The notes under the pieces were generated by a model that saw only the letters and a list, made by a program, of their open reading frames with translations, was not told where the DNA came from and searched no databases. A stretch of DNA of 64,000 nucleotides from Pseudomonadota bacterium. GTDB lineage: Bacteria > Pseudomonadota > Alphaproteobacteria > UBA1280 > RI-95. Where the stretch lies: assembly GCA_016125375.1 (NCBI GenBank), contig WGLU01000001.1, positions 310,001-374,000 of the forward strand, in the 5' to 3' direction. Position 1 is the first letter of the stretch. The number at the start of each line of letters is the position of its first letter. The translations under genes were made by a program, and so were the position numbers. Shown here piece after piece: positions 20,367-35,232 of the stretch.

Positions 20367-20399
20367 GCATACACAAGAATATAAGGAATGTATCTGCCT

Positions 20400-20729
20400 A
20401 TGCTGCTGACAACGACATTTTACGTAGAAGGGTATCGTATCCGCCGTTATGGCCCTCTGGTTGCTTCGGAAGCCGTCATGGGTACAAACATCTTCCGCGA
20501 CTACTTTGCCAAGGTCCGCGATGTCGTGGGCGGTCGTTCAGGTGCTTTCCAGACTGCGTTGGCGGAAGCCCGTGAGCAAATTCTCCACGAGATTCAGATT
20601 CAGGCCCAAAAGTCGGACTGTAATGCCATTATCGGTATCGATATTGACTATGGCGAGATCTCCGGCGGTGGTAAGACAATGCTCCTGGTGGCTGCCCAGG
20701 GGACGGCGGTGTATATAGAGCCAGAATAA
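20400..20729 (+). CDS. YbjQ/UPF0145 family protein
   Basis: A protein of about 109 residues opening 'MLLTTTFYVEGYRI', the usual YbjQ beginning (TTT-x-x-EG). It includes 'GTNIFRDYFAKVRDVVGGRS', 'AREQILHEIQIQA', and the closing 'CNAIIGIDIDYGEI' strand. Members form ring-shaped oligomers and have been described as possible heavy-metal-binding proteins, but the cellular role is unknown. I choose ATG 20400 over 20388 because it gives the family N-terminus; AAGGA lies at 20383-20387. This is the last plausible host gene before the phage-like island. Confidence 0.85.
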   Translation: MLLTTTFYVEGYRIRRYGPLVASEAVMGTNIFRDYFAKVRDVVGGRSGAFQTALAEAREQILHEIQIQAQKSDCNAIIGIDIDYGEISGGGKTMLLVAAQGTAVYIEPE

Positions 20730-20757: not shown

Positions 20758-20787
20758 TTGACCTGCGTACCACTTTGGGGGTATAAA
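20758..20787 (+). promoter_or_regulatory. Promoter at the left end of the phage-like island
   Basis: TTGACC (20758-20763), an 18-bp spacer, then TATAAA (20782-20787). The same hexamers with the same spacing recur at 21513-21542. It would drive the regulator gene at 20953 through a 5' leader of about 160 nt. Confidence 0.65.
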
Positions 20788-20796
20788 GTTTGTCAC

Positions 20797-20817
20797 GCCC
20801 ATTCGTGGGCTTCTTCT
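20797..20817 (+). terminator. UUCG-capped hairpin just after the first island promoter
   Basis: GCCCA-TTCG-TGGGC (20797-20810) followed by TTCTTCT. The expected transcript would begin within a few bases of this hairpin. It could be a weak terminator or a 5' stabilising stem-loop; the broken T tract makes either possible. Confidence 0.45.
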
Positions 20818-20849
20818 AAGGCATGTACCGCTAAGGGCTTGACCTTATC

Positions 20850-20867
20850 TATAATGCGCTTGCGCAT
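20850..20867. promoter_or_regulatory. Inverted repeat next to a TATAAT box
   Basis: A consensus TATAAT (20850-20855) merges into ATGCGC-TT-GCGCAT (20854-20867). A good -35 is not seen at the correct distance. It could be an operator or a weak activator-dependent promoter for the gene at 20953. Confidence 0.3.
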
Positions 20868-20952
20868 CCCTTATATTGCACAAAGATTTTGCAGGACCTC
20901 CCTGTACCTATTGTGCTGCCATCATGTAACCAATTTATAAGGACGGATACGA

Positions 20953-21483
20953 ATGACACCGTTTTACTTTACCGATGTCTATCAGGCTGTAACGTGGGCG
21001 ACTGAAGTGTTGCGTAAGCAACGGTTCCCCAAAATCAGCCCTGTTTATAAAGAACTGTTGTTGCAAAATGCTGAAGAGTCACGCCAGACAGTAACAACAT
21101 GGTTTGGTGAAGCTGCCAATCTGCCTCAGGACAGTCATGACCGGTATGCACTGGCAATGGAAGTATATAAGCACATCGGTCAATTGGATGAAGAGCAGCA
21201 GCTCCTCATAAAAGTAAAGTTCTGGGGCGATTACCGTACCTCCGACACACTTGCCCGAGCACTACGAGAGCAAGATATTCTGCGCCGCAAAGGCATCCGA
21301 ACACGGTTGAACTATCGCTACAGTGACCGGCAGACGGGCATTATACTGGGCGTAGATCATAAGACTGTCGCCCGTAGGCTAGAGAAAACATGGGAAGCGC
21401 TAGAAGCAGCGCTTGCTCGTGGCGGCCTTGTGCTTAGCCAGCAATCCATAGCAGATGAGGACGCTATTGCGCGTACCGCATAA
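20953..21483 (+). CDS. Phage-type HTH regulator, possible late-gene activator or antiterminator
   Basis: A 176-residue soluble protein. The C-terminal third ('YSDRQTGIILGVDHKTVARRLEKTW') looks like a sigma region 4 type helix-turn-helix, and the middle is helical and charged. In layout it recalls small phage proteins of the DUF6362/ArpU/Q type, but I cannot assign a family firmly. Its position is telling: it is the first gene of the island, and its stop is followed within 30 bp by a strong promoter and a terminator in front of the terminase genes, as with Q proteins of lambdoid phages. No nuclease or recombinase motif is seen. The start at 20953 has AAGGACGG upstream. Confidence 0.6.
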   Translation: MTPFYFTDVYQAVTWATEVLRKQRFPKISPVYKELLLQNAEESRQTVTTWFGEAANLPQDSHDRYALAMEVYKHIGQLDEEQQLLIKVKFWGDYRTSDTLARALREQDILRRKGIRTRLNYRYSDRQTGIILGVDHKTVARRLEKTWEALEAALARGGLVLSQQSIADEDAIARTA

Positions 21484-21512
21484 CACAAAAACCGGGGCGT
21501 CGCATTTTTTAC

Positions 21513-21542
21513 TTGACCCGGCGCCCCAAACTGTGCTATAAA
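21513..21542 (+). promoter_or_regulatory. Probable late promoter of the phage-like island
   Basis: TTGACC (21513-21518), an 18-bp spacer and TATAAA (21537-21542), a twin of the promoter at 20758. An inverted repeat GGGGCG (21494-21499) / CGCCCC (21522-21527) straddles the -35 and may be a binding site. Confidence 0.7.
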
Positions 21543-21553
21543 ATAAACACAAT

Positions 21554-21575
21554 CGGGAGAGCTCCCGGTTTTTTT
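21554..21575 (+). terminator. Intrinsic terminator directly after the late promoter
   Basis: CGGGA-GAGC-TCCCG followed by GTTTTTTT. It starts about 11 bases after the -10 box, so a transcript from 21549 or so would end after roughly 25 nt unless read through. It also stops transcription coming from the regulator gene. Confidence 0.75.
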
Positions 21576-21625
21576 ATTTTGTGCCCTTCGGCACCTCTCC
21601 ATTCAGCACACGCAGAGGGAATACC

Positions 21626-22072
21626 ATGACAGCCTTGATCAGCAAGGCGGGCTCAGCCATGAACCCGCACACATTATCGTGCCTGATAGAAATACTCACG
21701 ACACCTGACAATGACGGCATGACCCAAGCACAGGTAGCTGAGATGGCAGGTATATCGGAACGTACTGTCCGGAATTATCTAACACCGGAAGTCTGGGAGG
21801 AGATCCGCAAGATACGCCTCGCAGTCATGGCAAGGTCGTTGGCACTTGTAGACCGCGCATTGTTTGCAAAAGCAGCAGGTGGGGATGTATCCGCCGCTAA
21901 ACTCATCTACAGCAGATGGGACGAACACAAAGAGGTGGCACGCAAACTGACCCCTTGGTCAGAAGAACTAACCGCCATAGACGCTGAACTGAAGCAGTTG
22001 CAAGAGGAGATAGACGCCCTTGAAGCAGGCAGCCGTATTAAAACAGAAACAACTGAGTCTGCTCAGGCGTAA
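21626..22072 (+). CDS. Terminase small subunit (HTH protein)
   Basis: A 148-residue protein starting at ATG 21626 behind AGAGGGA. It has an N-terminal helix-turn-helix ('MTQAQVAEMAGISERTVRNYL') as in DNA-recognising small terminases, a helical middle, and a C-terminal coiled-coil-like stretch ('AELKQLQEEIDALEAG') suited to oligomerisation. Small terminase rings pick the packaging site and hand DNA to the large subunit. The identity rests mainly on its position directly before, and overlapping, the large terminase gene. Confidence 0.8.
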   Translation: MTALISKAGSAMNPHTLSCLIEILTTPDNDGMTQAQVAEMAGISERTVRNYLTPEVWEEIRKIRLAVMARSLALVDRALFAKAAGGDVSAAKLIYSRWDEHKEVARKLTPWSEELTAIDAELKQLQEEIDALEAGSRIKTETTESAQA

Positions 22073-23381
22073 GCATGTCCTGTTGGGACAGCAGCCGCAC
22101 ATTAAGTACGTGCCGCACAGCAAGCAGTCACAATTCCATGCAGCAGGAGCCGAGAGTAAAGAGCGCCTCTTCCTAGCCGGTAACCGGTGCGGTAAGACAT
22201 TCTGTGGTGCCTTTGAAATGGTTGTGCACTTGACCGGCTTTTACCCACCGTGGTGGTGCGGCAAGCGCTATGACAAACCGATACAGGGTTGGGCAGCCTC
22301 GATAACTGCGGAGATGACGCGGGATATTGTTCAGCGCACATATCTGGATTTTATTCATCCGGATTTAATCGTGCGCAAGACGATGCGCAAAGGTGTTTCT
22401 GATGCCTTGGATGTGCTGCATGTGCGTCATATCAGCGGTGGTACATCCGTTCTTGGCTTTAAATCGTTTGATCAAGGCAGGGAGAAGTTTCAGGGCACAT
22501 CACGGCATTTCATCCATCTGGATGAGGAGCCCGACATGGCAATTTATGAAGAATGCCTGATGCGTACATTGGATGTAGGGGGGAGCCTCATCCTGACGAT
22601 GACACCGCTAAAAGGTATGACAGACGTATGTGCCCACTACATGGAGGGAAGTGACCCGCATCGGGCGATTGTTCAGGCAACATGGGACGACGCGCTGCAT
22701 CTGGAATCTGCGGAAAAAGACAAACTGCGCAGCTCGCTGCGCCCTCACGAATTGGAGGCCCGGGAGAAGGGTATCCCGTCATTGGGCAGAGGGAAGGTCT
22801 ATACCGTTAAGGAAGCAGACATTACTTGCGAACCCTTTGAGCTGCCACCGACATATCGCCACGCATTTGGGATGGACTTTGGGTGGAGCAACCCAACCGC
22901 CGTTGTGTGGGGTGCTTTGGATCCGGAAACGGATATCCTCTACCTCTACGACAGTTATGCCCGAAGTGAGCAGACACCGGCTCAGCATGCTGCATCTATC
23001 CATACTCGGGGGGAATGGATTCCCGGAGTATGCGACCCGGCCGGACAAAGCCAGAGTCAACATGACGGTAAATCCCTGATGGAGGTTTACAGTCAACAGG
23101 GGCTTTACCTGACACAAGCAGATAATGGTGTCGAAGCCGGCCTCATGGCCGTGCTGGAACGTATGCGCACAGGCAGATTGAAAGTTTTCAACACCCTCGA
23201 AGGCTGGTGGCAGGAGTTTCGCCTGTACCGACGGGATGAGAATGGCCGCATTGTCAAACGGAGCGATCACTTGATGGATGCCACACGGTACTTGGTCATG
23301 TCAGGCCTCCCCTTGGCAAGGCCTGCACCTGCGGCACGTAAAACGGCACCTGTAAGGAAACGCGACTGGACAACCCTATAA
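22020..23381 (+). CDS. Phage terminase large subunit
   Basis: A 453-residue packaging motor from the chosen TTG start. The ATPase has Walker A 'AGNRCGKT' and Walker B 'FIHLDEEPD'. The nuclease domain has a first metal-binding Asp in 'GMDFGWSNPTAVVWG' and a late Asp in 'DHLMDATRY'. It resembles podoviral terminases. The frame has no ATG near its beginning; TTG 22020 has AGAGGAGA (22004-22010) at good spacing and overlaps the small subunit by 53 bp, suggesting coupled translation. All key residues appear intact, so the enzyme is probably functional. Confidence 0.92.
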   Translation: MKQAAVLKQKQLSLLRRKHVLLGQQPHIKYVPHSKQSQFHAAGAESKERLFLAGNRCGKTFCGAFEMVVHLTGFYPPWWCGKRYDKPIQGWAASITAEMTRDIVQRTYLDFIHPDLIVRKTMRKGVSDALDVLHVRHISGGTSVLGFKSFDQGREKFQGTSRHFIHLDEEPDMAIYEECLMRTLDVGGSLILTMTPLKGMTDVCAHYMEGSDPHRAIVQATWDDALHLESAEKDKLRSSLRPHELEAREKGIPSLGRGKVYTVKEADITCEPFELPPTYRHAFGMDFGWSNPTAVVWGALDPETDILYLYDSYARSEQTPAQHAASIHTRGEWIPGVCDPAGQSQSQHDGKSLMEVYSQQGLYLTQADNGVEAGLMAVLERMRTGRLKVFNTLEGWWQEFRLYRRDENGRIVKRSDHLMDATRYLVMSGLPLARPAPAARKTAPVRKRDWTTL

Positions 23382-23396
23382 CAAAGGACGCCCCAC

Positions 23397-23729
23397 ATGG
23401 ATAGAAGAGGACGCACAATAACGTTGACCACAACCGGCTTTAGCGAGCCGGTTTTTTTATGCCCTAATGCCAATACGCTGCACATGGTGCTGGTGACGCC
23501 TAAGGCTGGTTATGCGCGCCTTGAGTATACCTATGACCCTCCCAGCCGTATCCGTAATTACCCACACAGCGTTGCGTGGATTGAACATGACGCCGGCGCC
23601 ATTCGCACTGACATGGGCGACTGCCTGTGGGGAGAGCCTTCGGCAATTCGGTTGCGCCTATGCGGACCGCATGCAGAAGCCTCGTTGACAATCAAACCTT
23701 ATCAACCGGAGAGAGTGGACAACCCATGA
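23397..23729 (+). CDS. Small phage protein of unknown role
   Basis: A 110-residue protein, unrecognised, with beta-rich composition, 4 cysteines and no membrane helix. AGGACG lies before ATG 23397, and the stop overlaps the portal start (ATGA at 23726-23729), so it sits within the late operon. Its codons 12-21 contain a complete intrinsic terminator (23432-23458). Either the gene is translated through that hairpin, or the terminator belongs to the terminase transcript and this gene has grown over it. Confidence 0.6.
   Translation: MDRRGRTITLTTTGFSEPVFLCPNANTLHMVLVTPKAGYARLEYTYDPPSRIRNYPHSVAWIEHDAGAIRTDMGDCLWGEPSAIRLRLCGPHAEASLTIKPYQPERVDNP
23432..23458 (+). terminator. Intrinsic terminator inside a phage gene
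   Basis: AACCGGCT-TTAGCG-AGCCGGTT, a perfect 8-bp stem followed by five further T. It lies 50 bases after the terL stop and inside the frame at 23397. Confidence 0.8.
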
Positions 23730-25438
23730 GTACTGATATTCTCAAACGCGTCAAAGGATACTTTGAAGAAGCTGTACAGGCACCTGCCTATCGCACATGG
23801 CTTGCTGATGCCAAAAAGGCCTGGGCTTTTTATGATGGCGAACAATGGACGGCCGATGAAGTGCAGAAGCTGGAAGAGTACGGTCAGGCGCCCATCGTCA
23901 TCAACAAGATTGCCCCTAAAGTAGACAACGTCGCCGGCACAGAAATTGCCAGCAGGACACGTATTATCTACCGCTCCCGCTCCGGTGAGGCGGGAGAGGA
24001 GGAAACAGCCAAGGCACTTTCCGACCTCGCACTCTATGTAGCGGAGCGTAGTGAACAGGCGATTGAACTGTCCAACATGTTCAAGGCCGGCCTGATTACA
24101 GGTGTGGCATGGCTCGACGTCGGCATCGAAGACGGCGAAGAAGGGGCTGTTGTTTTCAACCGTTATGAAAACGAGATGCAGGTCGTTTGGGATAGTGCTG
24201 CAACCCGACAAGATTACAGTGATGCACGGTTTGTGTGCCGGGAACGCTGGCTGGACGAGGAAGAGGTTAAACGCCTGTTCCCTGAGACAGCAGATAGCCT
24301 GTTGTCTACCACATCGGCCGAAGAACGTACGCGGTTTGGCGCCCGCCCGCTTGGTGAGGATGTTATCTACTTCAACAGCGACCGTAAACTCTGGCGCGTC
24401 ATTGAAGTACAATACAAACAGACCGAGAAACTCTACCGAGTGCGCACGGTAACCGGTGAACCGGTGTTGACTTTTGACAAAGCAGAGGCGCGCCAGATTA
24501 ATGCTGAAGATACTCTGGACGTTACATACGCACCAAGGGTGCATGTAGCTTACTACAGCGGCAACGTGCTTTTGGGCCACGAACCTCTGCCGTATCTGCA
24601 CAACCGCTTTACGCTGATTCCGTATCTGTTCAAACGCGACCGTAAAACGGGAGCACCGTATGGTCTGGTCAGGACCGCTATTGATCCGCAGCGCGAATTG
24701 AATAAGCGCCGATCTAAGGCAATGCACCTACTGAATACCGCTCAGGTAATTGCGGATGTGGATGCAGTGGACGATCCAGACATGCTGGCGCGAGAAGCGG
24801 CACGCCCTGACGGCATGATCCTTAAACGTCCGGGTAAGGACCTACGCATTATCCGCAACACGGACCTGGCTGCGAGTCAGGTTAGCGTTATGGAAAAGGC
24901 AGCGCTCGATATTCAGGAAGTTATGGGTGTTTTTGATGAGGCTATTGGCCGTCATACAAACGCCACATCAGGCGTTGCTATTCAGACACGGCAAATGGCT
25001 AGCAACACGAATCAGATGTTTGCTTTTGATGCTCTGCGCAGAACCAAAAAAATGCTCGGCCTGACAGTGTTGGCCCTCATTCGCCAGTACTTCACAAACG
25101 AAATGACTATTCAGATTACCGATAACCTCAGCGCACCGCGACTGGTTCGCCTGAACCAACCCCTCAGGGATGAGCAGGGCAACACCATGCTGCGAGATGA
25201 CGGTAAACCGGTAATCCTGAACGATGTGCGGACAGGCATCTTTGATATCCACGTAGAAGAGGTGACTGACGCACTGAGCAGCAGGGAGCTGGAACTATCC
25301 CAGCTGCAACTGCTGATGCAGGCAGGCGTGCCTGTACCTCCGCAGATGCTGGTAGAAGCCTCAACGCTCCGTAACAAGGAGCAACTCATCCGTGAGCTGG
25401 ATGGGCAGGCGCAGCCATCAGCGTCAAAACCCCTTTAA
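23726..25438 (+). CDS. Podovirus-type portal protein
   Basis: A 570-residue protein from ATG 23726 (GGAGAG upstream; ATGA overlap with the gene before). Its beginning ('AWAFYDGEQW', 'APIVINKIAPKVDNVAGTEI') and the stretch 'TGVAWLDVGIEDGEEG' are typical of P22-like and related podoviral portals. The later part has the long helical stem and crown region. Twelve copies would form the ring through which DNA enters and leaves the capsid. It follows terS and terL in the expected order. Confidence 0.88.
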   Translation: MSTDILKRVKGYFEEAVQAPAYRTWLADAKKAWAFYDGEQWTADEVQKLEEYGQAPIVINKIAPKVDNVAGTEIASRTRIIYRSRSGEAGEEETAKALSDLALYVAERSEQAIELSNMFKAGLITGVAWLDVGIEDGEEGAVVFNRYENEMQVVWDSAATRQDYSDARFVCRERWLDEEEVKRLFPETADSLLSTTSAEERTRFGARPLGEDVIYFNSDRKLWRVIEVQYKQTEKLYRVRTVTGEPVLTFDKAEARQINAEDTLDVTYAPRVHVAYYSGNVLLGHEPLPYLHNRFTLIPYLFKRDRKTGAPYGLVRTAIDPQRELNKRRSKAMHLLNTAQVIADVDAVDDPDMLAREAARPDGMILKRPGKDLRIIRNTDLAASQVSVMEKAALDIQEVMGVFDEAIGRHTNATSGVAIQTRQMASNTNQMFAFDALRRTKKMLGLTVLALIRQYFTNEMTIQITDNLSAPRLVRLNQPLRDEQGNTMLRDDGKPVILNDVRTGIFDIHVEEVTDALSSRELELSQLQLLMQAGVPVPPQMLVEASTLRNKEQLIRELDGQAQPSASKPL

Positions 25439-25453
25439 GAGAAGGAATGAAGC

Positions 25454-26026
25454 ATGAATTACCCTGACTATGATGCCGGTAAGGCGGAAGCCCTGATGTC
25501 GGCACTGGACGGTTTGACGGCCGGGCCAGTTGCAACAGAGGTTGCAGAACAGCCTGTACCAGCCGCAGGCCCTGCTACGACAAGCAAGCCAGATATTACA
25601 GAGCTGCAGAAAATCGAAGCTTCTGTGCGTGGGGCGCTTGCGCTCTTTGGTATCGATTATGACGCTTATATCAACTACGCCCCCACAGCTGCGTACGGGA
25701 TGGCCTTGGCCAGCAACCCCGCACTTGTCGAGCGTATCGGGCGGTCGGAGATGCCCTTGGTTGAAGCCTTGCGCATTGCCCTGGCCTATGCACCGTATGC
25801 CGAGTTTGCCGCCAAATACGGCAATAATCCGGATGATATCCGTAACGCTATCCGTAAAGAGGTGGAGCAGGAACAGGGTGCCAATAGCACGCCTGAGCCG
25901 ACCGCTGCGGAGCGTTTGTTCAATTCCCGTCTGCCGGCATTTTCGTCTGCAGCGGGCGTAGCTGCCCCTAAAGCGGCAGGCAGCGAGCCGAAAAGCGGGC
26001 TGGATGCCCTTTTTAACCGCCGCTAA
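25454..26026 (+). CDS. Putative capsid scaffold protein
   Basis: A 190-residue protein of no family I recognise. It has an Ala/Pro/Glu-rich N-terminal part, a helical middle ('MPLVEALRIALAYAPYAEFAAKYG'), a charged helix and a short basic C-terminal end ('GLDALFNRR'). A small, low-complexity, helical protein coded between portal and major capsid genes is usually the scaffold, and a basic C-terminus often binds the coat. No serine protease motif is present, so a P22-like reusable scaffold is more likely than a protease fusion. This is an inference from position and composition. Confidence 0.55.
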   Translation: MNYPDYDAGKAEALMSALDGLTAGPVATEVAEQPVPAAGPATTSKPDITELQKIEASVRGALALFGIDYDAYINYAPTAAYGMALASNPALVERIGRSEMPLVEALRIALAYAPYAEFAAKYGNNPDDIRNAIRKEVEQEQGANSTPEPTAAERLFNSRLPAFSSAAGVAAPKAAGSEPKSGLDALFNRR

Positions 26027-26058
26027 GACGTAACACTCTGACAATCGGGAAAGAGAAT

Positions 26059-27090
26059 ATGGTAGCAACAATTCAAAATACACATGGTGTGTCGGCCGAG
26101 CAGTGGTCGACCGAGGTCTTTAGCGAGTACCTGAGCAACAACCCCTTCTACTCGTTCATGGGCGCTAACACCAACAGCATCGTACAGGTCAAGGAAGAGC
26201 TGACCAAAGCGCCAGGTGATGCCATTACCGTACAGCTGCGCGCGCGTTTGAGCGGCGCAGGCGTAACCGGTGCCACCACCCTGAAAGGTAACGAAGAAGA
26301 TCTGGTTTTCTATGACCAGAAGCTGACTGTGGACACTATTCGTCACGCAGTTATCCTGCGCGGTGAAATGAGCCAGAAGCGTGTTGCATTTGACCTGCGT
26401 AACCAGGCACGTGATGCACTGGTTGACTGGGCCAGCAACAAAATGCGTACAGATATCATCACCGCACTGACAGATACCAGTGTTGGCCGTGACCGCACCC
26501 GTTATCTGTACGGCGCGACTGATGCCAACTGGAATGCCACACATGCCACTGCTCTGGCAAACGTGGATGCAACAACAGATAAGCTGACAACTGACCTCAT
26601 CTCCCGCGCCAAGCGTAAGGCGATGCTGGAAGGTTCTCACCGTATCCGTCCGTTCCAGGTTAAACAGAACGGCCGCGTGGATGAGGTCTTTGTCCTGTTT
26701 GCACATCCGTATGCCGTGCGTGATTTGCTGGCTGATCAATCCTTCCGTGACGTGAATACCTACCTGCCTGGTTCGGTGAACGAGTCGGTCATGGTGCATG
26801 GTCAGCGTTACAAAGGTATGTGGGACGGCGTTATGATCTTCGAAACCGAAGATATGCCCATTGTTGAAGATGCAGGTGCTTCCAGCATCGATGTTGCCCA
26901 CAACGTCCTGTGTGGTGCACAGGCCTGTGCTATCGCATGGGGTAAAACCACAAACTACAAAGAAGAGAACGATGACTACGGCCATGAAAATGGCTTTGCC
27001 ATCGATGAAATCCGCGGCGTAGAAAAACTGGTCTTTGATGACATCGACCACGGGTTGGTGAACGTATTCACCGCTGCGGTGGCTGACTAA
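26059..27090 (+). CDS. Major capsid protein, N4-gp56 / Phage_capsid_3 type
   Basis: A 343-residue protein. The beginning ('EQWSTEVFSEYLSNNPFYSFMG'-like, then 'GDAITVQLRARLSGAGVTG') and the next segment ('LKGNEEDLVFYDQKLTVD', 'RHAVILRGEMSQKRVAFDLR') match the N4-gp56 capsid family, an HK97-fold coat without a large N-terminal propeptide. It would form the icosahedral shell. The gene is intact and is followed by a strong terminator, so capsid message could be made in excess over tail message. Confidence 0.88.
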   Translation: MVATIQNTHGVSAEQWSTEVFSEYLSNNPFYSFMGANTNSIVQVKEELTKAPGDAITVQLRARLSGAGVTGATTLKGNEEDLVFYDQKLTVDTIRHAVILRGEMSQKRVAFDLRNQARDALVDWASNKMRTDIITALTDTSVGRDRTRYLYGATDANWNATHATALANVDATTDKLTTDLISRAKRKAMLEGSHRIRPFQVKQNGRVDEVFVLFAHPYAVRDLLADQSFRDVNTYLPGSVNESVMVHGQRYKGMWDGVMIFETEDMPIVEDAGASSIDVAHNVLCGAQACAIAWGKTTNYKEENDDYGHENGFAIDEIRGVEKLVFDDIDHGLVNVFTAAVAD

Positions 27091-27106
27091 GTCAGTCGAA
27101 CAGGGG

Positions 27107-27134
27107 AGGGGCAGGTAACTGCCCCTTTCTTTTT
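27107..27134 (+). terminator. Intrinsic terminator after the capsid gene
   Basis: AGGGGCAG-GTAA-CTGCCCCT followed by TTCTTTTT in the 61-bp gap between the capsid and adaptor genes. T7 has its late terminator in the equivalent place. Confidence 0.85.
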
Positions 27135-27151
27135 ATGCAAGGGAGCCGACG

Positions 27152-27775
27152 ATGAACGTAAGTCAAATCCGCGACCGGATTATCCAGATCAGCCATAACG
27201 AGGATGCCCCGGACACTGCGCTGAAGAGCAAGGCCCTGGACTGGCTCAATAGCGCTTACCACGAACTGATTGACGAGCTGATGCCGCTGCTGGAAAGGCA
27301 GCTGAAAACAACTGTTGCTCAAACAGTCACTGCAGGCCAGACCATCCTGCCTGCCGATGCCTATCGGCTTGTACTGGTACGTGATGCCAGTACTGGCAAA
27401 GTTTATAAAGAACAGTCTTTCACCCGCATCAAGGCCGAAGAAAACAGTGCAATAGACGGTACCTTCTGGCTAGAGGGGCAAACGCTGATTTTTGCAGGCA
27501 CTGCCCCCGAAACGGTGGAGGTTACATATCTGCCGACCGTCCCTGAACTGGGCGAGGAAGATACGGAAGAAGACATTATGGTGCCGCAGCAGTTTCACTC
27601 TGCCCTTGTATGGGGTGGGCTTGTCTGGTCGGCCATTTATGAACGTGGTTTGTCTACGCAGTCGGAACTCGCTCTGTTCCAACAAAAATGGGAAGAAGCC
27701 AAACAACGTGTCCGGCAGTCGATGGGGATTCGTCCAACGTACAGCCGTTCCACACGCCATGTTGACTACCTGTAA
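27152..27775 (+). CDS. Head-to-tail adaptor protein
   Basis: A 207-residue protein. The start 'MNVSQIRDRIIQISHNEDAP', then 'ALDWLNSAYHELID', and the beta middle ending 'VEVTYLPTVPEL' resemble podoviral head-tail adaptor proteins, the gp4 position in P22. The C-terminal part is helical and ends in 'TYSRSTRHVDYL', as connector proteins that dock on the portal often do. It sits directly after the capsid gene and before the tail hub gene. Family membership is likely but was not checked by a profile search. Confidence 0.7.
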   Translation: MNVSQIRDRIIQISHNEDAPDTALKSKALDWLNSAYHELIDELMPLLERQLKTTVAQTVTAGQTILPADAYRLVLVRDASTGKVYKEQSFTRIKAEENSAIDGTFWLEGQTLIFAGTAPETVEVTYLPTVPELGEEDTEEDIMVPQQFHSALVWGGLVWSAIYERGLSTQSELALFQQKWEEAKQRVRQSMGIRPTYSRSTRHVDYL

Positions 27776-27787
27776 AGGAGTCGGAAA

Positions 27788-29542
27788 ATGAAACGTAATT
27801 TATCCGTTATCACGGTGCCGTTTCCGCCACGTATGATGTCGACAAGTCGTAACCCGACTGCCATGCCGGTAGAGTACGCTCGGGACGTACTCAACATGTT
27901 TACACTGACCAGTGGAGCTGGCTCTAAACGCAACGGCGTTCAAAAAGTTGGTAATGCCATTGGTGGTGATGAAACAATTCTGCGGCTGATGCATTTTGTT
28001 CCGGCGTCCGGCGCCCTACAGTTATTGGCAGTGACAGATGCCGGCTCTATTTATTTGTATGATGATGGTGATTGGACCAGCGTGTACACAGGGCTTTCTA
28101 CCAGTGGCCACGTCCGCTGGACACACTTTGGTAACCACTTGGCACTCTGTAACGGCATAGATACACCGCTGAAATGGGATGGCACGAGCTTTTCTAAAAT
28201 CAGCCAGTGGATCCAAGATGATGGCATCGACCTGACATATGTGGACGGCGATACACTCACCTTTACAGGTGACGAAACACTCTACCCCGCAGGGACGGAA
28301 GTAAAGCTACGCCTTGGCAGCGGAACATATGTGGAAACCACCGTGCTTAGCGTATCGGCAAGCAGTGGTACCGTAACCCTCAACCTAAGCGATGCAGTTG
28401 CAACAGCCGCGTTGGATGAACTGCATTACAAAGCATATCCGCCTGCTTTTGCCTTTATCATGGCCGCCCATAACCGTTTGTGGGGCCTTGGCACGGGAGC
28501 CCTGCAAGCAAATGGTTTCAGCGCAAACGCTGACCGCAACCGCGTTTATTACACAGACGGTCTGAACGACCCTGATGCATGGCGAAATGATGATGGGTTC
28601 CTTCAGCACATCAACCTGAATGATAAAACACCTACGAGTGATGAACTGATTGCCATGGCCATTAAAGATGGTCTGACAGTGTTCTTTTTCCGCAACTTTG
28701 CCCAGGTATGGGCAGGTACAGACCCTACAGCAACGGGAGATTTCACCTGGCAGAAAACAATCTCTGTCGGCACCGTTCATGGAGATCTGGTTGTAAATCT
28801 GCCGAATGATATCGGCTTTTTTACCCGCTATGGTGCGCGGACAATCAGTCGTGCCCTACAGACAGAACAGTTGGATGTAAGCGACCTGGGCTCTGATGTA
28901 GACCCCACCATTGCTGGTGCGATACAGGAGATTACAGCCACCGACAATGCCTACCGTGACGCGCACACGTTCTACGAGGATCGGCAGGGCTGGTTCGGAT
29001 TCAAGCTCGGCAACGTTGTTGTGGTTTATCAGGTTGCCTCTGCCGCATCAGGCTGGGCACGCTTTGATGGTCTGTTTGCTGATGCGACAGCCTTTATGAA
29101 TACCCCTGATGGCAAGCTCTATCTTGCCAGCGGCGGGCAACTTTATGTGTATGACCACGATACATATGACGATGATGGTGAAGCCATCCAGACCCGTTGG
29201 TGGACGCCGTGGCTGAACTTCAGCAGCGACTTCAAACGATGGGCCAATAAATATGTGGAATTGGTCACAGAGCAGGGTGCACCTGTCAACATTACCTTAC
29301 GACGCTACAAGTCTTACAACAGCTCCAGTTCTGTGAGCCAGGAACTCACCGCAACCACAGCCGCAGATTACTGGGATGACGGTGATTGGGATGATGCCCT
29401 ATGGGACAACGGCTACCCTAAGCCTGCCGTAGTGCGGGACGGATATGTGGCTGATGTGCTGGCTTACGCCGTTGAAAGCTCTACAACAACGGGGCCTATG
29501 ACTATTTTCGGTTTTAAACTATATGGAAAGCAGGAACGATGA
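27788..29542 (+). CDS. Tail hub / tail stabilisation protein (P22 gp10-like position)
   Basis: A 584-residue, almost all-beta protein with repeated Trp/Gly-rich blades ('VRWTHFGNHLALCNG', 'MAAHNRLWGLGTG', 'GFFTRYGARTISRALQTEQ') that suggest a beta-propeller, as in P22 gp10 and the gp12-type nozzle of T7-like phages. Its size, position after the adaptor and lack of membrane segments support a tail hub that closes the capsid exit. A short Asp/Trp-rich patch ('DYWDDGDWDDALWD') near the C-terminus may bind metal. The stop overlaps the fibre gene (ATGA at 29539-29542). Confidence 0.7.
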   Translation: MKRNLSVITVPFPPRMMSTSRNPTAMPVEYARDVLNMFTLTSGAGSKRNGVQKVGNAIGGDETILRLMHFVPASGALQLLAVTDAGSIYLYDDGDWTSVYTGLSTSGHVRWTHFGNHLALCNGIDTPLKWDGTSFSKISQWIQDDGIDLTYVDGDTLTFTGDETLYPAGTEVKLRLGSGTYVETTVLSVSASSGTVTLNLSDAVATAALDELHYKAYPPAFAFIMAAHNRLWGLGTGALQANGFSANADRNRVYYTDGLNDPDAWRNDDGFLQHINLNDKTPTSDELIAMAIKDGLTVFFFRNFAQVWAGTDPTATGDFTWQKTISVGTVHGDLVVNLPNDIGFFTRYGARTISRALQTEQLDVSDLGSDVDPTIAGAIQEITATDNAYRDAHTFYEDRQGWFGFKLGNVVVVYQVASAASGWARFDGLFADATAFMNTPDGKLYLASGGQLYVYDHDTYDDDGEAIQTRWWTPWLNFSSDFKRWANKYVELVTEQGAPVNITLRRYKSYNSSSSVSQELTATTAADYWDDGDWDDALWDNGYPKPAVVRDGYVADVLAYAVESSTTTGPMTIFGFKLYGKQER

Positions 29543-30900
29543 GTACAAAATACCAACGACCTAGCGGTAGCTACGCCGGAAGCACCGAGCTTACCAACCG
29601 CTCTAAATACCAAAACGATGCGGGAGCAGAGCCGCGGGTACCTATTTCCAGCACAAAAATTGATGGCGATTTTAACTATGTCATCGATGCCCTGAATGCG
29701 ATTGATGAGGCCTCTGGCAGCCGCGCCAGCATTGATGACCGTATGAGTGTGGCGCTAAATGCGGACGGTACGCTTAAAGGCTCGGTGGTCGCATCGATTG
29801 ACGAGTGGGTCTTGTTTCAGGCGATAAATCTGAACCGTAGCAATAACACAACAGTTACCTGTGATGGCGACCAGACGGGCATCTTCAGTGAAGGTCGGCG
29901 CGTGCGGATTAGTATCGCCTCCCGAACCGTCTATGGCGATGTGGCGTCAGCATCTTACGACAGCAGCATTACAACAATCGTTTTTGATGGCCTGACAGAT
30001 GCAAATGGTAGTCCCGAGGCATTGGAAACAACGCCATCTGCTCTCTATTACAGTTACATCCGAGGCAGTTTCAACGGCAATATGCCGAATGCAAGCCATC
30101 ATCTGCGGTTGAAAAACGAGGTGCCGTTGCTACGTTTGCTCGATACAGGCACGAGTGGTAAAGAATATGCCCTGCGCAGTTGTGCCGGCGCGTTAGAAAT
30201 TGTCGAAAATACTGGCACAATGGCCAGCCCTGTGTGGGAAATACGCGCAACAGTCAACGAAGACGGCATTCAGCTTGATACATCATGCTTGCCACTCTCC
30301 ACACTGAGCGATGGCACCGCAGACAGGCTGATGGGTTATAACGGCTCGGGTACACCGACAGAGGTCACAGCCGGTGCTGGCCTTGCTCTTAGCAGCGGTT
30401 CACTGAGTGTTGTGAGTGGGACATCAGCAGGTGATTTGGTCGCGTTGGACGGTTCTGCCAAGCTGCCCGCAGTCGATGGCAGCCAGCTGACGAATCTGCC
30501 ACCAGCAGGTCTGGTTAAGCAGGTTGTAGAAGGAACGTACAGCTCTACACGTACTTTTGCTTCCACAACCTTTTCAGATGTTGTTAGTGCCTCAATTACT
30601 GTTGCTAGCGGCTCTAAGGTACTTGTCAATGTGTCGTACCCAATGCGTATCGGCGGTGGGTCTTCCCTGGTGGTAGGTAGTGCACGTCTTTTGCGAGGCG
30701 GCACAACCTTGTTTACCACGGACCGGGCATGTGGCATGAGCGTTGACCAGGAGGGTTGCATGATTTCCTACTGCTACTTGGATACACCCCCCTCTGCTGG
30801 CACGTATACATATACTGCACAGGCAGCGCGGTATTCCGGTTCTTTCAACCTGTTTGCAGAAACCCCACAAAAAATCATTCTGGAGGAAATCAGTGCATGA
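29539..30900 (+). CDS. Tail fibre or tail spike protein
   Basis: A 453-residue protein. The N-terminal 90 residues ('ISSTKIDGDFNYVIDALNAID') look like a virion-attachment domain of the kind that begins many phage fibres ('KIDADFN' type). The middle is Ser/Thr/Gly-rich beta structure, and after 'LDGSAKLPAVDGSQLTNLPP', a phrase common in fibres, the last 130 residues form a probable receptor-binding head. It would decide host recognition. It is coupled to the hub gene and overlaps the next small gene by four bases. Confidence 0.75.
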   Translation: MSTKYQRPSGSYAGSTELTNRSKYQNDAGAEPRVPISSTKIDGDFNYVIDALNAIDEASGSRASIDDRMSVALNADGTLKGSVVASIDEWVLFQAINLNRSNNTTVTCDGDQTGIFSEGRRVRISIASRTVYGDVASASYDSSITTIVFDGLTDANGSPEALETTPSALYYSYIRGSFNGNMPNASHHLRLKNEVPLLRLLDTGTSGKEYALRSCAGALEIVENTGTMASPVWEIRATVNEDGIQLDTSCLPLSTLSDGTADRLMGYNGSGTPTEVTAGAGLALSSGSLSVVSGTSAGDLVALDGSAKLPAVDGSQLTNLPPAGLVKQVVEGTYSSTRTFASTTFSDVVSASITVASGSKVLVNVSYPMRIGGGSSLVVGSARLLRGGTTLFTTDRACGMSVDQEGCMISYCYLDTPPSAGTYTYTAQAARYSGSFNLFAETPQKIILEEISA

Positions 30901-31190
30901 CAACTGAACAACTTGCTGCAGCTATGGCTTATCTTTATCCCTCTGGCGGATACATTATCGACGGGTTGGTCATTCACATGGATGAGAATGTTCCGTCACC
31001 TGATGCTGAAACAATCGCTTCTGCTTTGAACACGGTTGCAGGCTTGACCTATCAGGAGCAGCGTCGCCAGGCTTATCCGCCGATCGGTGACCAATTGGAC
31101 GCCATTTGGAAAGGAGGTCTGGCCCGTGCAGACATGCAGGCACAAATTGAAGCTGTAAAGGCTGCCTATCCCAAGCCGAATGAGGTGTGA
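30897..31190 (+). CDS. Small tail-associated phage protein
   Basis: A 97-residue protein starting at ATG 30897 (ATGA overlap with the fibre stop), with TCTGGAGGAAAT just upstream. The segment 'RRQAYPPIGDQLDAIWKGG' is very common in small proteins encoded next to phage fibre genes and probably marks a fibre-associated or assembly factor. The precise role is not known. It has no membrane helix. Confidence 0.65.
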   Translation: MTTEQLAAAMAYLYPSGGYIIDGLVIHMDENVPSPDAETIASALNTVAGLTYQEQRRQAYPPIGDQLDAIWKGGLARADMQAQIEAVKAAYPKPNEV

Positions 31191-31194
31191 CATC

Positions 31195-31659
31195 ATGCCA
31201 AACATGGAATTTGCCCCCTTAGAGAAACATCATCTGCAGGAGCTGTACTATCTGATGGTTCAACAGGATTTTCCTGATGTGCCAGATAGCTATCAGGAGG
31301 CTGAGCCATATCTCATGGATGCGGAAAGCTTCGGTGCATTCGAAAATAACCGGCTTTGTGCCGGTTTTTTGTTTGGTGAACGAACGGATACATCCGCCTT
31401 TATAGATGTCGTGTGTGCGCCAGCTTACCACGGGAAATGGGCAACTTTTCACACGCTATCACGTTTGTACGATGTGGCGTTCCGTCAAATGGGCCTGTCT
31501 TTTGTCTGGGCGCAACCACGTAATCCGCGCGCACTTAAAGCAGCACTCAAGGCCGGGTTTCTTGTGGCTACAAGTGCTGATCAGGACCATGAGCAACCGT
31601 ATGTGATTTTAACCCCAACGCGTCTTAAGGCGCGTTTTTTGAAAGCATTGGAGGAGTAA
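31195..31659 (+). CDS. GNAT-like protein in the virion operon
   Basis: A 154-residue protein starting at ATG 31195 behind GAGGTG. The fold order (beta strand 'ENNRLCAGFLFGER', 'SAFIDVVCAPAYHGKW', helix, 'FVWAQPRNPRALKAALKAGFLVAT') fits a GNAT N-acetyltransferase, although the acetyl-CoA loop (R/QxxGxG/A) is poorly kept ('YHGKWATF'). Similar proteins are found beside the fibre and ejection genes of podoviruses. It may modify a virion or host protein, or it may be structural. Two terminator-like hairpins lie inside it (31348 and 31617). Confidence 0.65.
   Translation: MPNMEFAPLEKHHLQELYYLMVQQDFPDVPDSYQEAEPYLMDAESFGAFENNRLCAGFLFGERTDTSAFIDVVCAPAYHGKWATFHTLSRLYDVAFRQMGLSFVWAQPRNPRALKAALKAGFLVATSADQDHEQPYVILTPTRLKARFLKALEE
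31348..31370 (+). terminator. Intrinsic terminator inside the GNAT gene
   Basis: AACCGGC-TTTGT-GCCGGTT, a 7-bp stem ending in a TTTTTT run (31365-31370). The hairpin codes for 'NNRLCAGFLF' in the reading frame. Confidence 0.7.
31617..31640 (+). terminator. Second terminator-like hairpin at the 3' end of the GNAT gene
   Basis: AACGCG-TCTTAAGG-CGCGTT with four further T, 20 bases before the stop codon. It could stop transcripts before the ejection-type gene. Confidence 0.6.
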
Positions 31660-31660
31660 A

Positions 31661-32422
31661 ATGGGTTCGTTGTTTTCCCCTAAAGTACCGTCTGCACCAC
31701 CGCCACCGCCAGCGGCAACCTATAGAGATGAAATTGGTGGAACCGAACAGGTGCCTATTACAAATCCGGACGGGTCGACAACTTACATCACCCGGCAGTT
31801 GCCGTTGACTGAAGAGCAGCAACAAGAAAAGGCTGCATTTGAGGGCATTATGCAGTCAGCCCTGGACGAGATTAAACGCCTGTCCACAGATGACTTTGCA
31901 GATGACCCGGCTGTTAAGTCCGTACTGGATGACTATACGGCTGAGCAGTCAAAAGTACTCAGTGATGTATTTACCAACCGTAGTGATACAGAAGAAGCCG
32001 TTCTCGCCAAACGTGGATTGGCAGATTCCAGCGCAGCGCAGGATATTCGACGCCAGCGTCAGAAGGATGAGTTGGATGCACGCAGCTCCCTGCAACGACA
32101 GGCGAACCTGTTGAAAGATGATATTCGTAACGAGCGAATTAACCTGCAGCAAAACCTCTACAACATTGCGGCAACCAGACAGGATCTGAACAGCGCCAAA
32201 ACATTGCAGTCGGCAGCCAGTGGTTTTAACGCAGTCAGCAATGTGAACGCCTATAACCGGGCATCTTCATCCGATGCCTTCCGTAACAGCATTACCTCTC
32301 ACAATACAGGTCTGAACACGTTGGGTGTTCTTGCCTCAACGGCTGGAGCGGTGACTGGGGGCCCTGTAGGCGGCCTGATTGGAGCGGGTATCGCGCAAAC
32401 CTTTGCCGGCAGATTTTATTAA
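31661..32422 (+). CDS. Putative internal virion / DNA ejection protein
   Basis: A 253-residue protein with GGAGGAG upstream. It begins 'MGSLFSPKVPSAPPPPPA', a proline-rich opening common in podoviral ejection proteins. A long charged helical part (about 50-190) follows, then a Gly/Ala-rich hydrophobic end ('VLASTAGAVTGGPVGGLIGAGI') that could enter a membrane. This fits proteins of the T7 gp14 / P22 gp14 class, which leave the capsid with the DNA. Large gp15/gp16-like partners are absent. Confidence 0.6.
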   Translation: MGSLFSPKVPSAPPPPPAATYRDEIGGTEQVPITNPDGSTTYITRQLPLTEEQQQEKAAFEGIMQSALDEIKRLSTDDFADDPAVKSVLDDYTAEQSKVLSDVFTNRSDTEEAVLAKRGLADSSAAQDIRRQRQKDELDARSSLQRQANLLKDDIRNERINLQQNLYNIAATRQDLNSAKTLQSAASGFNAVSNVNAYNRASSSDAFRNSITSHNTGLNTLGVLASTAGAVTGGPVGGLIGAGIAQTFAGRFY

Positions 32423-32434
32423 GGAGTATTTACC

Positions 32435-32800
32435 ATGAATGACCAAACAATTCAGGAATGGCACCAGAACGAATTTCTGCCCTGGAAAGAAGCCATGCTC
32501 AAGACACGTGACATGCGTGTACGATTTTCCCAGAAGGTACGCCAGCATGCCGCGGAACTGAAATATATCGTATCGTTGTTGTTGGAACACCGCGGACGCG
32601 AGGCTGTGCGCCATTGGAACCGTCTGGAACTGGAGCCTGCCTTGCAGATGCTGGAACTTTCAGCAGACCGCTTGGTCATCGAAACCTTGGACGGTGAAAA
32701 GTTTGCGGTGCCTATCGATGCACTACTGACAGATTTGCAGAAGATGGTCGAAGGAAAGACAACGGCCCCGGTTATGACTGCTCAAGCAAGCGGTTCTTGA
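32435..32800 (+). CDS. Unrecognised phage protein at the end of the structural operon
   Basis: A 121-residue, mostly helical soluble protein with no known motif. AAGGAG precedes ATG 32435, 12 bp after the ejection-type gene. Its last 29 bases overlap the end of a gene on the opposite strand (32772-33269). It is the last forward gene before the strand switch. Confidence 0.55.
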   Translation: MNDQTIQEWHQNEFLPWKEAMLKTRDMRVRFSQKVRQHAAELKYIVSLLLEHRGREAVRHWNRLELEPALQMLELSADRLVIETLDGEKFAVPIDALLTDLQKMVEGKTTAPVMTAQASGS

Positions 32801-33269
32801 TATCCTCGGCCAGGTTTTGGTCGGCCTGCTCATCGTGCAGCTCGCTTGCGATGACTTCTGCCATCAGTTCCTGCCAATCAATCTCGTCAGCACTAGGGAA
32901 AATACGCTGGTCGAGATAAATCTCCCAGAAAAGGGCAATTTCGTTGCTGATACGCGGGTCGATAATCGACTGCCGTTGATAGCCCAGAATGGCTGTGTCG
33001 TGCAGGGCGATAATCACCTGCTTGCGCGTATGGTAAGCGAGGTTGCCCTTGAAGGTAGAACCCAATACAGGCTTGAGCATGTCATAAAGCTCTTCTTCTT
33101 CCTGTACTAGTCCTTGCGAACAGCGGGGATCAGTCGGGGCAAGATAGCCGTAGCGTGTTATCAGTTCAATAGGGGCAGGGGGAAAGGTAAAGTCCAGCTC
33201 TTCATCATCCCGCGTGAGAATGATGTTGTATTTGAATGGATGAATGGTCTGGCCTTTGACGTACTTCAT
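32772..33269 (-). CDS. Unrecognised protein encoded against the phage operon
   Basis: A 165-residue soluble, acidic protein of unknown family. The start at 33269 has a good GGAG, with GAGGAGG further upstream. It begins 'MKYVKGQTIHPFKYNIILTRDDEELDF' and has a helical, Glu-rich C-terminus. It is the only minus-strand gene in the island, has a divergent promoter region on its right (33270-33360), and overlaps the 3' end of 32435-32800. Such lone reversed genes in prophages are often expressed on their own ('morons') or act in control; which applies here is unknown. Confidence 0.65.
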   Translation of the reverse strand: MKYVKGQTIHPFKYNIILTRDDEELDFTFPPAPIELITRYGYLAPTDPRCSQGLVQEEEELYDMLKPVLGSTFKGNLAYHTRKQVIIALHDTAILGYQRQSIIDPRISNEIALFWEIYLDQRIFPSADEIDWQELMAEVIASELHDEQADQNLAEDIKNRLLEQS

Positions 33270-33319
33270 GGCTTCTCCTTACCTTGAGCTTACCTCCTCT
33301 GCCTTTTGTCTGCAACAGA

Positions 33320-33348
33320 TTGATACGCAATACGTTTCTAGTTTACAT
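33320..33348 (+). promoter_or_regulatory. Possible promoter of the lysis genes
   Basis: TTGATA (33320-33325), 17 bp, TTACAT (33343-33348), in the gap between the reversed gene and the lysis set. Transcription would begin very close to the start codon at 33361. Confidence 0.4.
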
Positions 33349-33360
33349 ATGGTGATTGTC

Positions 33361-33540
33361 ATGACGCATTCCTATGCACACCTCGTGGAAGATATCCGCG
33401 AAATCCGTACAGAACTGAAAGATATCCGCCGGGAAATGAACCGTAATAAAGGCTTTATCGGTGGTATCGCATGGGCCTTCGGTGCTCTTAGTATTGCGCT
33501 ACAGATTATTATCCAGTGGGTTAAAGGAGGCGGACATTAA
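33361..33540 (+). CDS. Small membrane protein of the lysis module
   Basis: About 59 residues from ATG 33361 (an in-frame ATG at 33349 is possible). A charged coiled-coil-like N-terminal part ('EDIREIRTELKDIRREMNR') is followed by one membrane helix ('GGIAWAFGALSIALQIIIQWV'). Small proteins with this layout next to an endolysin are often holins or holin regulators. The ribosome binding site is weak. The stop shares its last base with the amidase start (33540). Confidence 0.6.
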   Translation: MTHSYAHLVEDIREIRTELKDIRREMNRNKGFIGGIAWAFGALSIALQIIIQWVKGGGH

Positions 33541-33923
33541 TGCGCCCGATTACACATCACATCATCCATTGCTCGGATAGTACTTTTGGCGATGTTAAAA
33601 CCATACGTGGCTGGCATTTGCAACGTGGTTTCCACGATGTCGGATATCACTTTGTCATTCGCACAGACGGTGAAATCGAAGTCGGCCGTTTGCTAACAGA
33701 GGTAGGTGCTCATGTTGAAGGACACAATAGCACGAGCATTGGCACCTGTCTGATTGGGAAAACGGATTTTACCGGGGCCCAGTTCAAAGCGCTCAGACGG
33801 CTCCATGAATCTCTGGCAGATCTGTTCCCGGGGATTGCAACCGCCCCTCACAACGCATTCAATCCTCACAAAACCTGTCCCAACTTTAATGTGGCTCAAG
33901 CTCTGAAAGGAGAACTGTCATGA
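33540..33923 (+). CDS. N-acetylmuramoyl-L-alanine amidase (T7 lysozyme-like endolysin)
   Basis: A 127-residue Amidase_2 enzyme very like T7 gp3.5. Zinc ligands appear to be His10 ('IIHCSD'), His104 and Cys113 ('HKTCPNFN'). Tyr36 in 'DVGYHFVI' and Lys111 match the T7 catalytic Tyr46 and Lys128. It cuts the amide bond between muramic acid and the stem peptide. No signal peptide is present, so it needs a holin to reach the wall; membrane proteins lie on both sides. Confidence 0.92.
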   Translation: MRPITHHIIHCSDSTFGDVKTIRGWHLQRGFHDVGYHFVIRTDGEIEVGRLLTEVGAHVEGHNSTSIGTCLIGKTDFTGAQFKALRRLHESLADLFPGIATAPHNAFNPHKTCPNFNVAQALKGELS

Positions 33924-34297
33924 TGGCGTTACTTCCGCTTATTGGTCCGCTCTTGAGCCTGTTCCGCCGGAGGGGCGTGGAGGGTGTAGCTCAAGATGCC
34001 ACTGAGCAGGTTGTTTCTGCGCTTGAAGCTTTTCTACACAAAGATGAAGAAGCGGCAAAGTTGACAGCGGACTACATGGATCAGGCCCGCAAACATGACA
34101 TCGCGACCTTTGACGCGCAAGACCGTTTCGCCAACCGCATGCGTGCCTGTGTAAGACCGGCCTGCACCTTCGTGGCGCTTTGCTGGTACGTCTATGCCCG
34201 CGCTAATGGGATAGAGTTGCAGCCGGAAGATTATGCCATCATTGGCGGTATTCTGGCTTTCTGGTTTGGCTTCCGTCCGTTCGAGAAACGGCGTTAA
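33920..34297 (+). CDS. 3-TM holin family protein (GTA-holin-like)
   Basis: A 125-residue protein coupled to the amidase by an ATGA overlap. It begins with a hydrophobic stretch ('MMALLPLIGPLLSLF'). A helical middle follows, then 'NRMRACVRPACTFVALCWYVYA' and 'YAIIGGILAFWFGFRPFEK', two further membrane segments. The 'RPxxxF' and 'FWFGFRP' pattern fits the 3TM holin family found in gene transfer agents and phages of alphaproteobacteria. It would open the membrane for the amidase. Its stop overlaps the stop of the converging SDR gene. Confidence 0.75.
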   Translation: MMALLPLIGPLLSLFRRRGVEGVAQDATEQVVSALEAFLHKDEEAAKLTADYMDQARKHDIATFDAQDRFANRMRACVRPACTFVALCWYVYARANGIELQPEDYAIIGGILAFWFGFRPFEKRR

Positions 34298-35142: not shown

Positions 35143-35232
35143 GGAGGTGTGGCTGAGCGGTTGAAAGCACTGGTCTTGAAAACCAGCAGGGGTTAACGCC
35201 TCTCGTGGGTTCGAATCCTACCACCTCCGCCA
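35143..35232 (+). tRNA. tRNA-Ser (anticodon TGA)
   Basis: The 90-nt class II tRNA has acceptor stem GGAGGTG/CACCTCC, discriminator G and encoded CCA. The anticodon stem CTGGT/ACCAG closes loop CTTGAAA, giving TGA. The long variable arm is AGGGGTTAACGCCTCT, and the T loop contains GTTCGAAT. It would read TCA and related codons. Confidence 0.96.

Follow-up and report, generated by a model that had tools for sequence, protein, structure and literature searches.

The 64,000-nucleotide stretch of DNA analysed here (the window) spans positions 310001-374000 of contig WGLU01000001.1, from an alphaproteobacterial genome of 1.98 Mb that is 97.7% complete (assembly GCA_016125375.1; GTDB lineage Alphaproteobacteria; UBA1280; RI-95), and carries at 20953-34297 a complete particle gene cluster of the P22/Pam1 podovirus type. 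This island of about 13.3 kb is very probably a domesticated, vertically inherited cluster of phage-derived particle genes. Judged from the genes alone, it is likely that this complete podovirus particle works like a gene transfer agent (GTA). On balance, it also seems probable that the island represents a new, independently exapted class of short-tailed (P22/Pam1-type) GTA that predates the split of two orders, one of which seemingly includes a MarineProteo1 metagenome-assembled genome (MAG), with its own sigma-4-like antiterminator and perhaps with larger host-DNA loads (up to phage size) than those of known GTAs.

As a preliminary description of this DNA had claimed, the packaging, capsid, tail and lysis genes are intact: TerS, TerL, a P22-family portal, scaffold, capsid, adaptor, nozzle, fibre, amidase and holin are all encoded by whole open reading frames (ORFs), backed by family and PDB matches (Table 1), and the genes lie on the plus strand with one minus-strand gene inside. 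The key residues to which it pointed are also kept, in the window and in relatives alike. TerL retains the Walker A (GNRCGKT), HLDEE, DFGW, CDPAG and DHLMDA motifs, its nuclease domain matches PDB 4dkw in a profile search of PDB (E 3e-36), and the amidase retains its H/H/C residues. Host genes do lie on both sides, namely queA-tgt-tRNA-Lys, IDO (minus strand) and ybjQ (plus strand) on the left, and an SDR gene (minus strand), tRNA-Ser(TGA) and a helicase gene (minus strand) on the right. The reported lack of genes for integration, lysogeny control and replication was borne out as well, as the region of 19-35.2 kb yielded neither an integrase nor a repressor nor a replication gene, and the integrase-family matches of the genome all fall outside the window. 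The extent first proposed, 20758-34297, stands except at its left edge: the first gene begins at 20953, and the TTG at 20758 falls on the start of a promoter-like TTGACC-N18-TATAAA.

The cluster recurs in relatives, all of them MAGs (some incomplete) of small-genome Alphaproteobacteria; in all, about 16 further genomes from two orders hold it, each with a single copy. Portal homologues with 55-60% identity occur in three of the five other genomes of the window's order (four of six, counting its own), and 12 of the 18 genomes of a sister order carry the cluster, always in single copy; a capsid profile recovers 15 GTDB MAG loci at 67-78% identity. Within an even, class-wide sample of 385 genomes, strong capsid matches are confined to these two orders, and two other genomes give weak ones. 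Nearly all copies have the order orf176-terS-terL-orf110-portal-scaffold-capsid-adaptor-nozzle-fibre-GNAT-orf253-orf121-orf165(-)-orf64-amidase-holin; in one family of the window's order (f3), the portal gene has been relocated behind the nozzle and GNAT genes. With these f3 genomes, the 'MarineProteo1_Bin2' MAG (L032) groups in the island tree, MarineProteo1 being an early-branching group relative to the Alphaproteobacteria (PMC8879329). No integrase, replication or repressor gene was noticed in any copy, by inspection rather than by an exhaustive scan.

The search for the island at the same chromosomal place, which the preliminary description had recommended, finds a flank of ybjQ and/or tRNA-Ser(TGA) in several genomes. 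The ybjQ gene lies directly upstream in one genome of the window's order (G001), in three of the sister order (G370, G390 and G399) and in a short contig catalogued as viral (L036), at 78-94% identity, while tRNA-Ser(TGA) lies to the right in G001, G389 and G390. G004 and G005, which belong to the window's order but lack the island, have the arrangement ybjQ-orf165m-SDR-tRNA-Ser(TGA) with no island gene in between, which is an empty or emptied site. Loss of the island is the simplest reading in their case, since both are nested beside the window's genome in the GyrA tree (support 96/98). A decayed remnant occupies the site in G087 (L213), a genus-mate of the carrier G390: TerL, portal and capsid are gone, and what remains is ybjQ, a shortened nozzle, GNAT and orf253, followed by orf121, orf165m, orf64, amidase, holin and tRNA-Ser, with the lysis genes still open. 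In G389 (L098:13997-14971), an internal deletion fuses the N-terminal half of the portal to the apparent C-terminus of the scaffold, so that either an otherwise whole cluster is in early loss or the assembly is in error. Finally, orf176 stays at ybjQ without adjoining particle genes in five genomes, of which three (G201, G397 and G398) have the capsid gene on another contig and two (G395 and G396, 68% and 89% complete) yielded no detectable capsid gene. Members of two orders thus have the cluster at the ybjQ...tRNA-Ser(TGA) locus, while in some it has decayed, moved or been lost, and the copies together provide a natural series that runs from intact through split and decaying to lost.

Descent was assessed in 14 genomes by comparing an island tree (TerL, portal, capsid, adaptor and nozzle) with a host tree built from GyrA alone; G391, which is 54% complete, was left out because its GyrA is a fragment. 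The trees have 8 of 11 splits in common, at a Robinson-Foulds (RF) distance of 6 against a smallest value of 16 among 5000 label permutations. When G391 is added, 6 of 12 splits are common and again no permutation reaches the observed RF. Patristic distances of island and GyrA are likewise correlated (Mantel r 0.90, with none of 5000 permutations as high), and the island evolves at 1.24 times the rate of GyrA. The ratio of nonsynonymous to synonymous substitutions (dN/dS, Nei-Gojobori method, NG86) of the cluster genes, the second measurement recommended, ranges from 0.05 to 0.38 in close pairs with estimable dS, and with dS near saturation only 'far below 1' can safely be read from it. In sum, the cluster has co-diversified with its hosts, mostly vertically, and under purifying selection. 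Neither of the two observations that the preliminary description had named as telling against domestication, an integrase-bearing full-length prophage at this site and relaxed selection, was found in relatives.

A different history would be the repeated integration of related temperate phages at the tRNA-Ser locus, each time with loss of the integrase and early regions. A tRNA does flank the island, and the G087 remnant and the G389 deletion show that decay occurs. Nevertheless, the island lies 5' of the tRNA, in the window with the SDR gene between them; its ends share no att-like repeats above chance, nor are pieces of the tRNA repeated, and tRNA-Ser was rejected as an attachment site. Added to the trees that track the host, the rate of 1.24 times that of GyrA, the absence of any integrase seen in any copy and the lack of anything close in phage collections, this makes the deletion-remnant history very unlikely, and the recent deletion remnant that the preliminary description had offered as one option is abandoned. 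The integrase, att sites and lysogeny control of a temperate prophage were looked for at the island and not found.

Phage collections place the cluster at a considerable distance from free phages. Among 2.9 million IMG/VR contigs, two short ones (5-6 kb) lie clearly above about 35% portal identity, and the next full-length contig reaches 33%. One of the two short contigs, L036 (IMGVR_UViG_3300045922_001054), bears the IDO-ybjQ host flank and is therefore cellular DNA misclassified as viral; chromosomal fragments of this type can lead viral catalogues into error. GenBank phages come no closer than 33% in the portal, 37% in the capsid and 47% in TerL, and in a portal tree with 73 IMG/VR portals those of the island group as a single clade with support 99. 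Among collinear phage contigs the nearest is L115, 40.9 kb long, in which TerL-portal-capsid-adaptor-nozzle-fibre-orf253 follow one another in this order with identities of 26-52%; from this collinearity, the island probably descends from a short-tailed phage some 40 kb in size. The P22-like phages of the Pam1/Pan3 type (Pseudanabaena Pam1, Pam5 and Pan3, a Megaira phage and L115) have the TerL, portal and capsid families in common with the island, but they exist as free phages with genomes of some 35-62 kb, whereas the island has no early region, no integrase and no close phage relative.

Two further explanations were weighed. The island could be a capsid-forming satellite that relies on a helper phage for replication and mobilisation, as its compactness and its restriction to structural and packaging genes would allow; yet it has a nozzle, fibre and lysis genes of its own and lacks the integrase or excision genes and the dependence on helper tails of satellites, it descends vertically, and the window's genome holds exactly one Terminase_6N gene, with no second one. 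The satellite option of the preliminary description is accordingly dropped, its probability being close to nil. Alternatively, the genes might belong to a non-integrated or otherwise active phage that is conserved by chance and whose early genes lie at another place in the genome. The five genomes with orf176 away from the particle genes make genes acting in trans possible, but co-diversification over two orders and a fixed locus would be unexpected for such a phage, as would a single copy per genome, and we regard this explanation as highly improbable.

Of the options in the preliminary description, it is thus the domesticated particle of the GTA kind that is favoured by the common locus, the co-diversification and the low dN/dS, with the function itself predicted. 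Six GTA features have been set out (PMC9662315). Among them, the island has particle proteins derived from Caudoviricetes; it is endogenized in the host genome, a state that in GTAs often extends over several loci, being chromosomal, at one locus in members of two orders and with the regulator gene apart in five genomes; and its inheritance is mostly vertical, with co-diversification as quantified above. The other three features concern the particles: mostly random host DNA is encapsidated, the head is too small to take up all of the agent's own genes, and the packaged DNA reaches other cells. In the mechanism proposed, orf176 would turn on expression of the cluster in some of the cells, probably as an activator that also allows transcription, by antitermination, to pass the terminator ahead of terS. 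TerS and TerL would then package host DNA in headfuls, the amidase and holin would lyse the producing cell and the short-tailed particles would deliver the DNA to kin, steps that are predicted from the protein families involved.

A domesticated particle might instead serve another job, such as the killing of kin or rivals, the lysis-driven release of nutrients or biofilm material, or defence, whether filled with DNA or empty. Vertical descent, purifying selection, lysis genes and a variable fibre C-terminus would fit any beneficial particle. Against such a role, TerS is kept, as is TerL with its full set of ATPase and nuclease residues, a pair that would be superfluous in a device built purely for killing or lysis, and tailocins are not known to have a capsid or a terminase. 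Another job is thus conceivable but unlikely, and packaging of host DNA in the manner of a GTA is preferred.

The island appears to differ in phage ancestry from both GTA types described in Alphaproteobacteria, from which it is set apart by protein families and by published descriptions. The preliminary description had spoken of RcGTA as the known alphaproteobacterial GTA, but it is not the only one: Bartonella has BaGTA, which constitutes a type of its own. Like RcGTA and CcGTA (Rhodogtaviriformidae, type I), the island is an intact Caudoviricete-derived cluster of about 14 kb with long vertical inheritance, activator genes located outside the main cluster, terminators inside it (PMC11150451) and a headful-type TerL, that of RcGTA being related to P22-like TerLs (PMC7947584). 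It differs by family assignment, with a portal of the P22 family, a capsid of PF13252, an SU10-type adaptor and the nozzle of a short tail; no homologous head-tail genes were recognised between them, and the island lacks a TTAA-N7-TTAA CtrA-like site and keeps the helix-turn-helix (HTH) of TerS. BaGTA (Bartogtaviriformidae, type II) resembles it in having a core cluster of about 14 kb, which every species of its host group carries at one site, along with strong constraint and separate phage-derived genes (PMC3610622). Compared by description, BaGTA has a phage-derived run-off replication origin and nearby secretion-system cassettes, none of which were seen beside the island, and is one genus wide. 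Within the body of literature searched, no published podovirus-type GTA and no account of this cluster were found. GTA origins with a known genetic basis are few, comprising types I and II and that of Brachyspira (PMC9662315). Because RcGTA-like sequences served to train the principal program for detecting GTAs, others are missed (PMC11841831).

The regulatory part of this reading centres on orf176. Its product is predicted by AlphaFold2 (AF2) to be all-helical (predicted local distance difference test, pLDDT, 82.6), its best PDB folds are sigma region 4 domains (probability 0.9-1.0, with E 0.25 and weaker), and some homologues match Sigma70_r4_2 (E 5e-6); a match to DUF6362 was sub-threshold and was discarded. 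A terminator lies 20-125 nt upstream of terS in six of eight genomes, against a background of 2.3% of the window's 120-bp stretches that hold one. Terminator-like hairpins are also seen within the particle cluster, at 23432-23453, 27102-27131, 31348-31366 and 31617-31636, and expression of the cluster would require read-through of them. In the Caulobacter GTA, GafY and IHF provide activation, and GafZ, a sigma-like HTH protein, carries RNA polymerase past terminators inside the cluster (PMC11150451). From this analogy, as distinct from homology, the sigma-4-like fold and the terminators before terS, orf176 is proposed as an activator and antiterminator of the cluster, and the terminators ahead of terS suggest antitermination control as in CcGTA.

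Upstream of orf176, the promoter-like site contains the imperfect palindrome TACCACTTTGGGGGTA, whose pattern is unique in the window and is kept in the close relative L036, not farther out. In L036 the counterpart (about 640-665) has the palindrome TTATACCCCTTTAGAGGTATAA, which overlaps the -10 of the promoter-like site as in the window. A palindrome overlapping the -10 before orf176 is possibly a candidate operator. A scan for sigma-70 promoters gave no excess over shuffles. Regulation of the CtrA type was rejected, the only TTAA-N7-TTAA match in the window being at 9747, outside the island.

Several points weigh against descent as strict as that of a host gene, or against the GTA function. 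The approximately unbiased (AU) test rejects identical topologies (p 0.0002 with the island data, 0.02 with the GyrA data), the conflicting splits being the placement of G370, that of G389/G293 and the branching among G392-G394; a limited amount of exchange, or error in a single-gene tree, may account for this, and descent is mostly, not provably entirely, vertical. The host tree comes from one gene, and some MAGs are incomplete. The GTA function, that is, particles, random host DNA and delivery, is predicted from genes of MAGs. The window's TerS keeps its N-terminal HTH, unlike known GTAs, whose small terminases have no recognisable DNA-binding domain (PMC11841831), and packaging could therefore start at preferred sites. 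If the head is phage-sized, as that of Pam1 with its 36-kb genome, it would fit the whole 13.3-kb cluster, contrary to the GTA self-packaging criterion. Lastly, the sigma-4 similarity of orf176 is weak by E-value (0.25).

As for TerS in the relatives, the HTH is present in L036, G001, G389 and G390. The TerS of G394 (L101:21580 onward into L102) has 90 aa and no recognisable HTH, which it seems to have lost. HTH-bearing versus HTH-less TerS across families may represent a natural series of packaging-specificity loss.

Among the remaining genes (Table 1), the fibre aligns to its relatives mainly over residues 1-143 up to 1-321. The likeness of the 3TM holin to GTA holins, noted in the preliminary description, amounts to a sub-threshold hint to Pfam GTA_holin_3TM (E 0.27 in the window, 0.07 in the best of nine relatives), and that assignment was not adopted. 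The minus-strand orf165m is found in the two orders only (one relative's copy is at L092:10293-10799, minus strand), including between ybjQ and SDR in the island-free G004 and G005; family and PDB searches gave no match, and AF2 gave no confident fold (pLDDT 41). It is probably a host gene, but may be a retained regulator or immunity gene of the particle.

Table 1. Features of the island and its flanks, with positions in the window.
Feature	Position	Strand	Evidence and remarks
IDO, indoleamine 2,3-dioxygenase family	19033-20217	-	PF01231 E 2e-87; near island, left of ybjQ; also in L036
ybjQ (YbjQ_1/PF01906), host, left flank	20388-20729	+	PF01906 E 2.9e-29
Promoter-like TTGACC-N18-TATAAA	20758-20787	+	Imperfect palindrome at 20768-20783; a lead
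orf176, basic HTH protein, sigma-70 region-4-like	20953-21483	+	10 homologues aligned
Intrinsic terminator between orf176 and terS	21551-21570	+
TerS, small terminase, N-terminal HTH	21626-22072	+	phrog_24579 E 1.5e-8
TerL, ATPase and nuclease	22038-23381	+	PF03237 E 2e-20; PF17289 E 2e-15; start codon uncertain, longest ORF from 22020
orf110, small conserved protein	23397-23729	+	Same-position homologues: L036 55%, G390 33%, G370 28%
Portal, P22 family	23720-25438	+	PF16510 P22_portal E 7e-117; PDB 7eep (Pam1 portal) E 3e-33
Probable scaffold	25454-26026	+	Between portal and capsid; 27-52% in nearly all relatives; no family match
Major capsid protein	26059-27090	+	PF13252 (Phage_capsid_3) E 7e-47; PDB 9vye E 3e-57, 7eel E 1e-29; relatives 67-87% identical
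Head-tail adaptor	27152-27775	+	PF24175 SU10_adaptor E 2e-13
Tail nozzle / tail tubular protein	27788-29542	+	24% to Megaira phage 'tail tubular protein'; 38-55% in relatives
Tail fibre-like protein	29539-30900	+	Putative role, from position; N-terminus conserved, C-terminus variable
Small protein phrog_9114	30894-31190	+	E 1.6e-12
GNAT-like protein	31189-31659	+	PF00583 E 2e-4; relatives have one at same position
orf253, probable internal/ejection virion protein	31661-32422	+	Predicted function; 38-53% in relatives; 38% in phage contig L115
orf121, conserved	32435-32800	+	20-45% in relatives
orf165m, probably host gene inside island	32772-33269	-	58-68% in relatives; 165-180 aa; no known family
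orf64, small membrane protein, lysis accessory	33346-33540	+	Conserved beside amidase in relatives
N-acetylmuramoyl-L-alanine amidase (endolysin)	33540-33923	+	PF01510 E 4e-12; phrog_822 E 8e-40
Holin-like membrane protein	33920-34297	+	9 homologues
tRNA-Ser(TGA)	35143-35232	+	Conserved right flank

If the GTA reading is true, a phage of another type was domesticated, once more, to package DNA, and control through a sigma-like antiterminator arose by convergence; these bacteria would maintain a tamed phage to their own benefit, most likely for packaging and passing on their own DNA. The hosts have small genomes and are represented by MAGs only, and the finding would bear on gene exchange in them.

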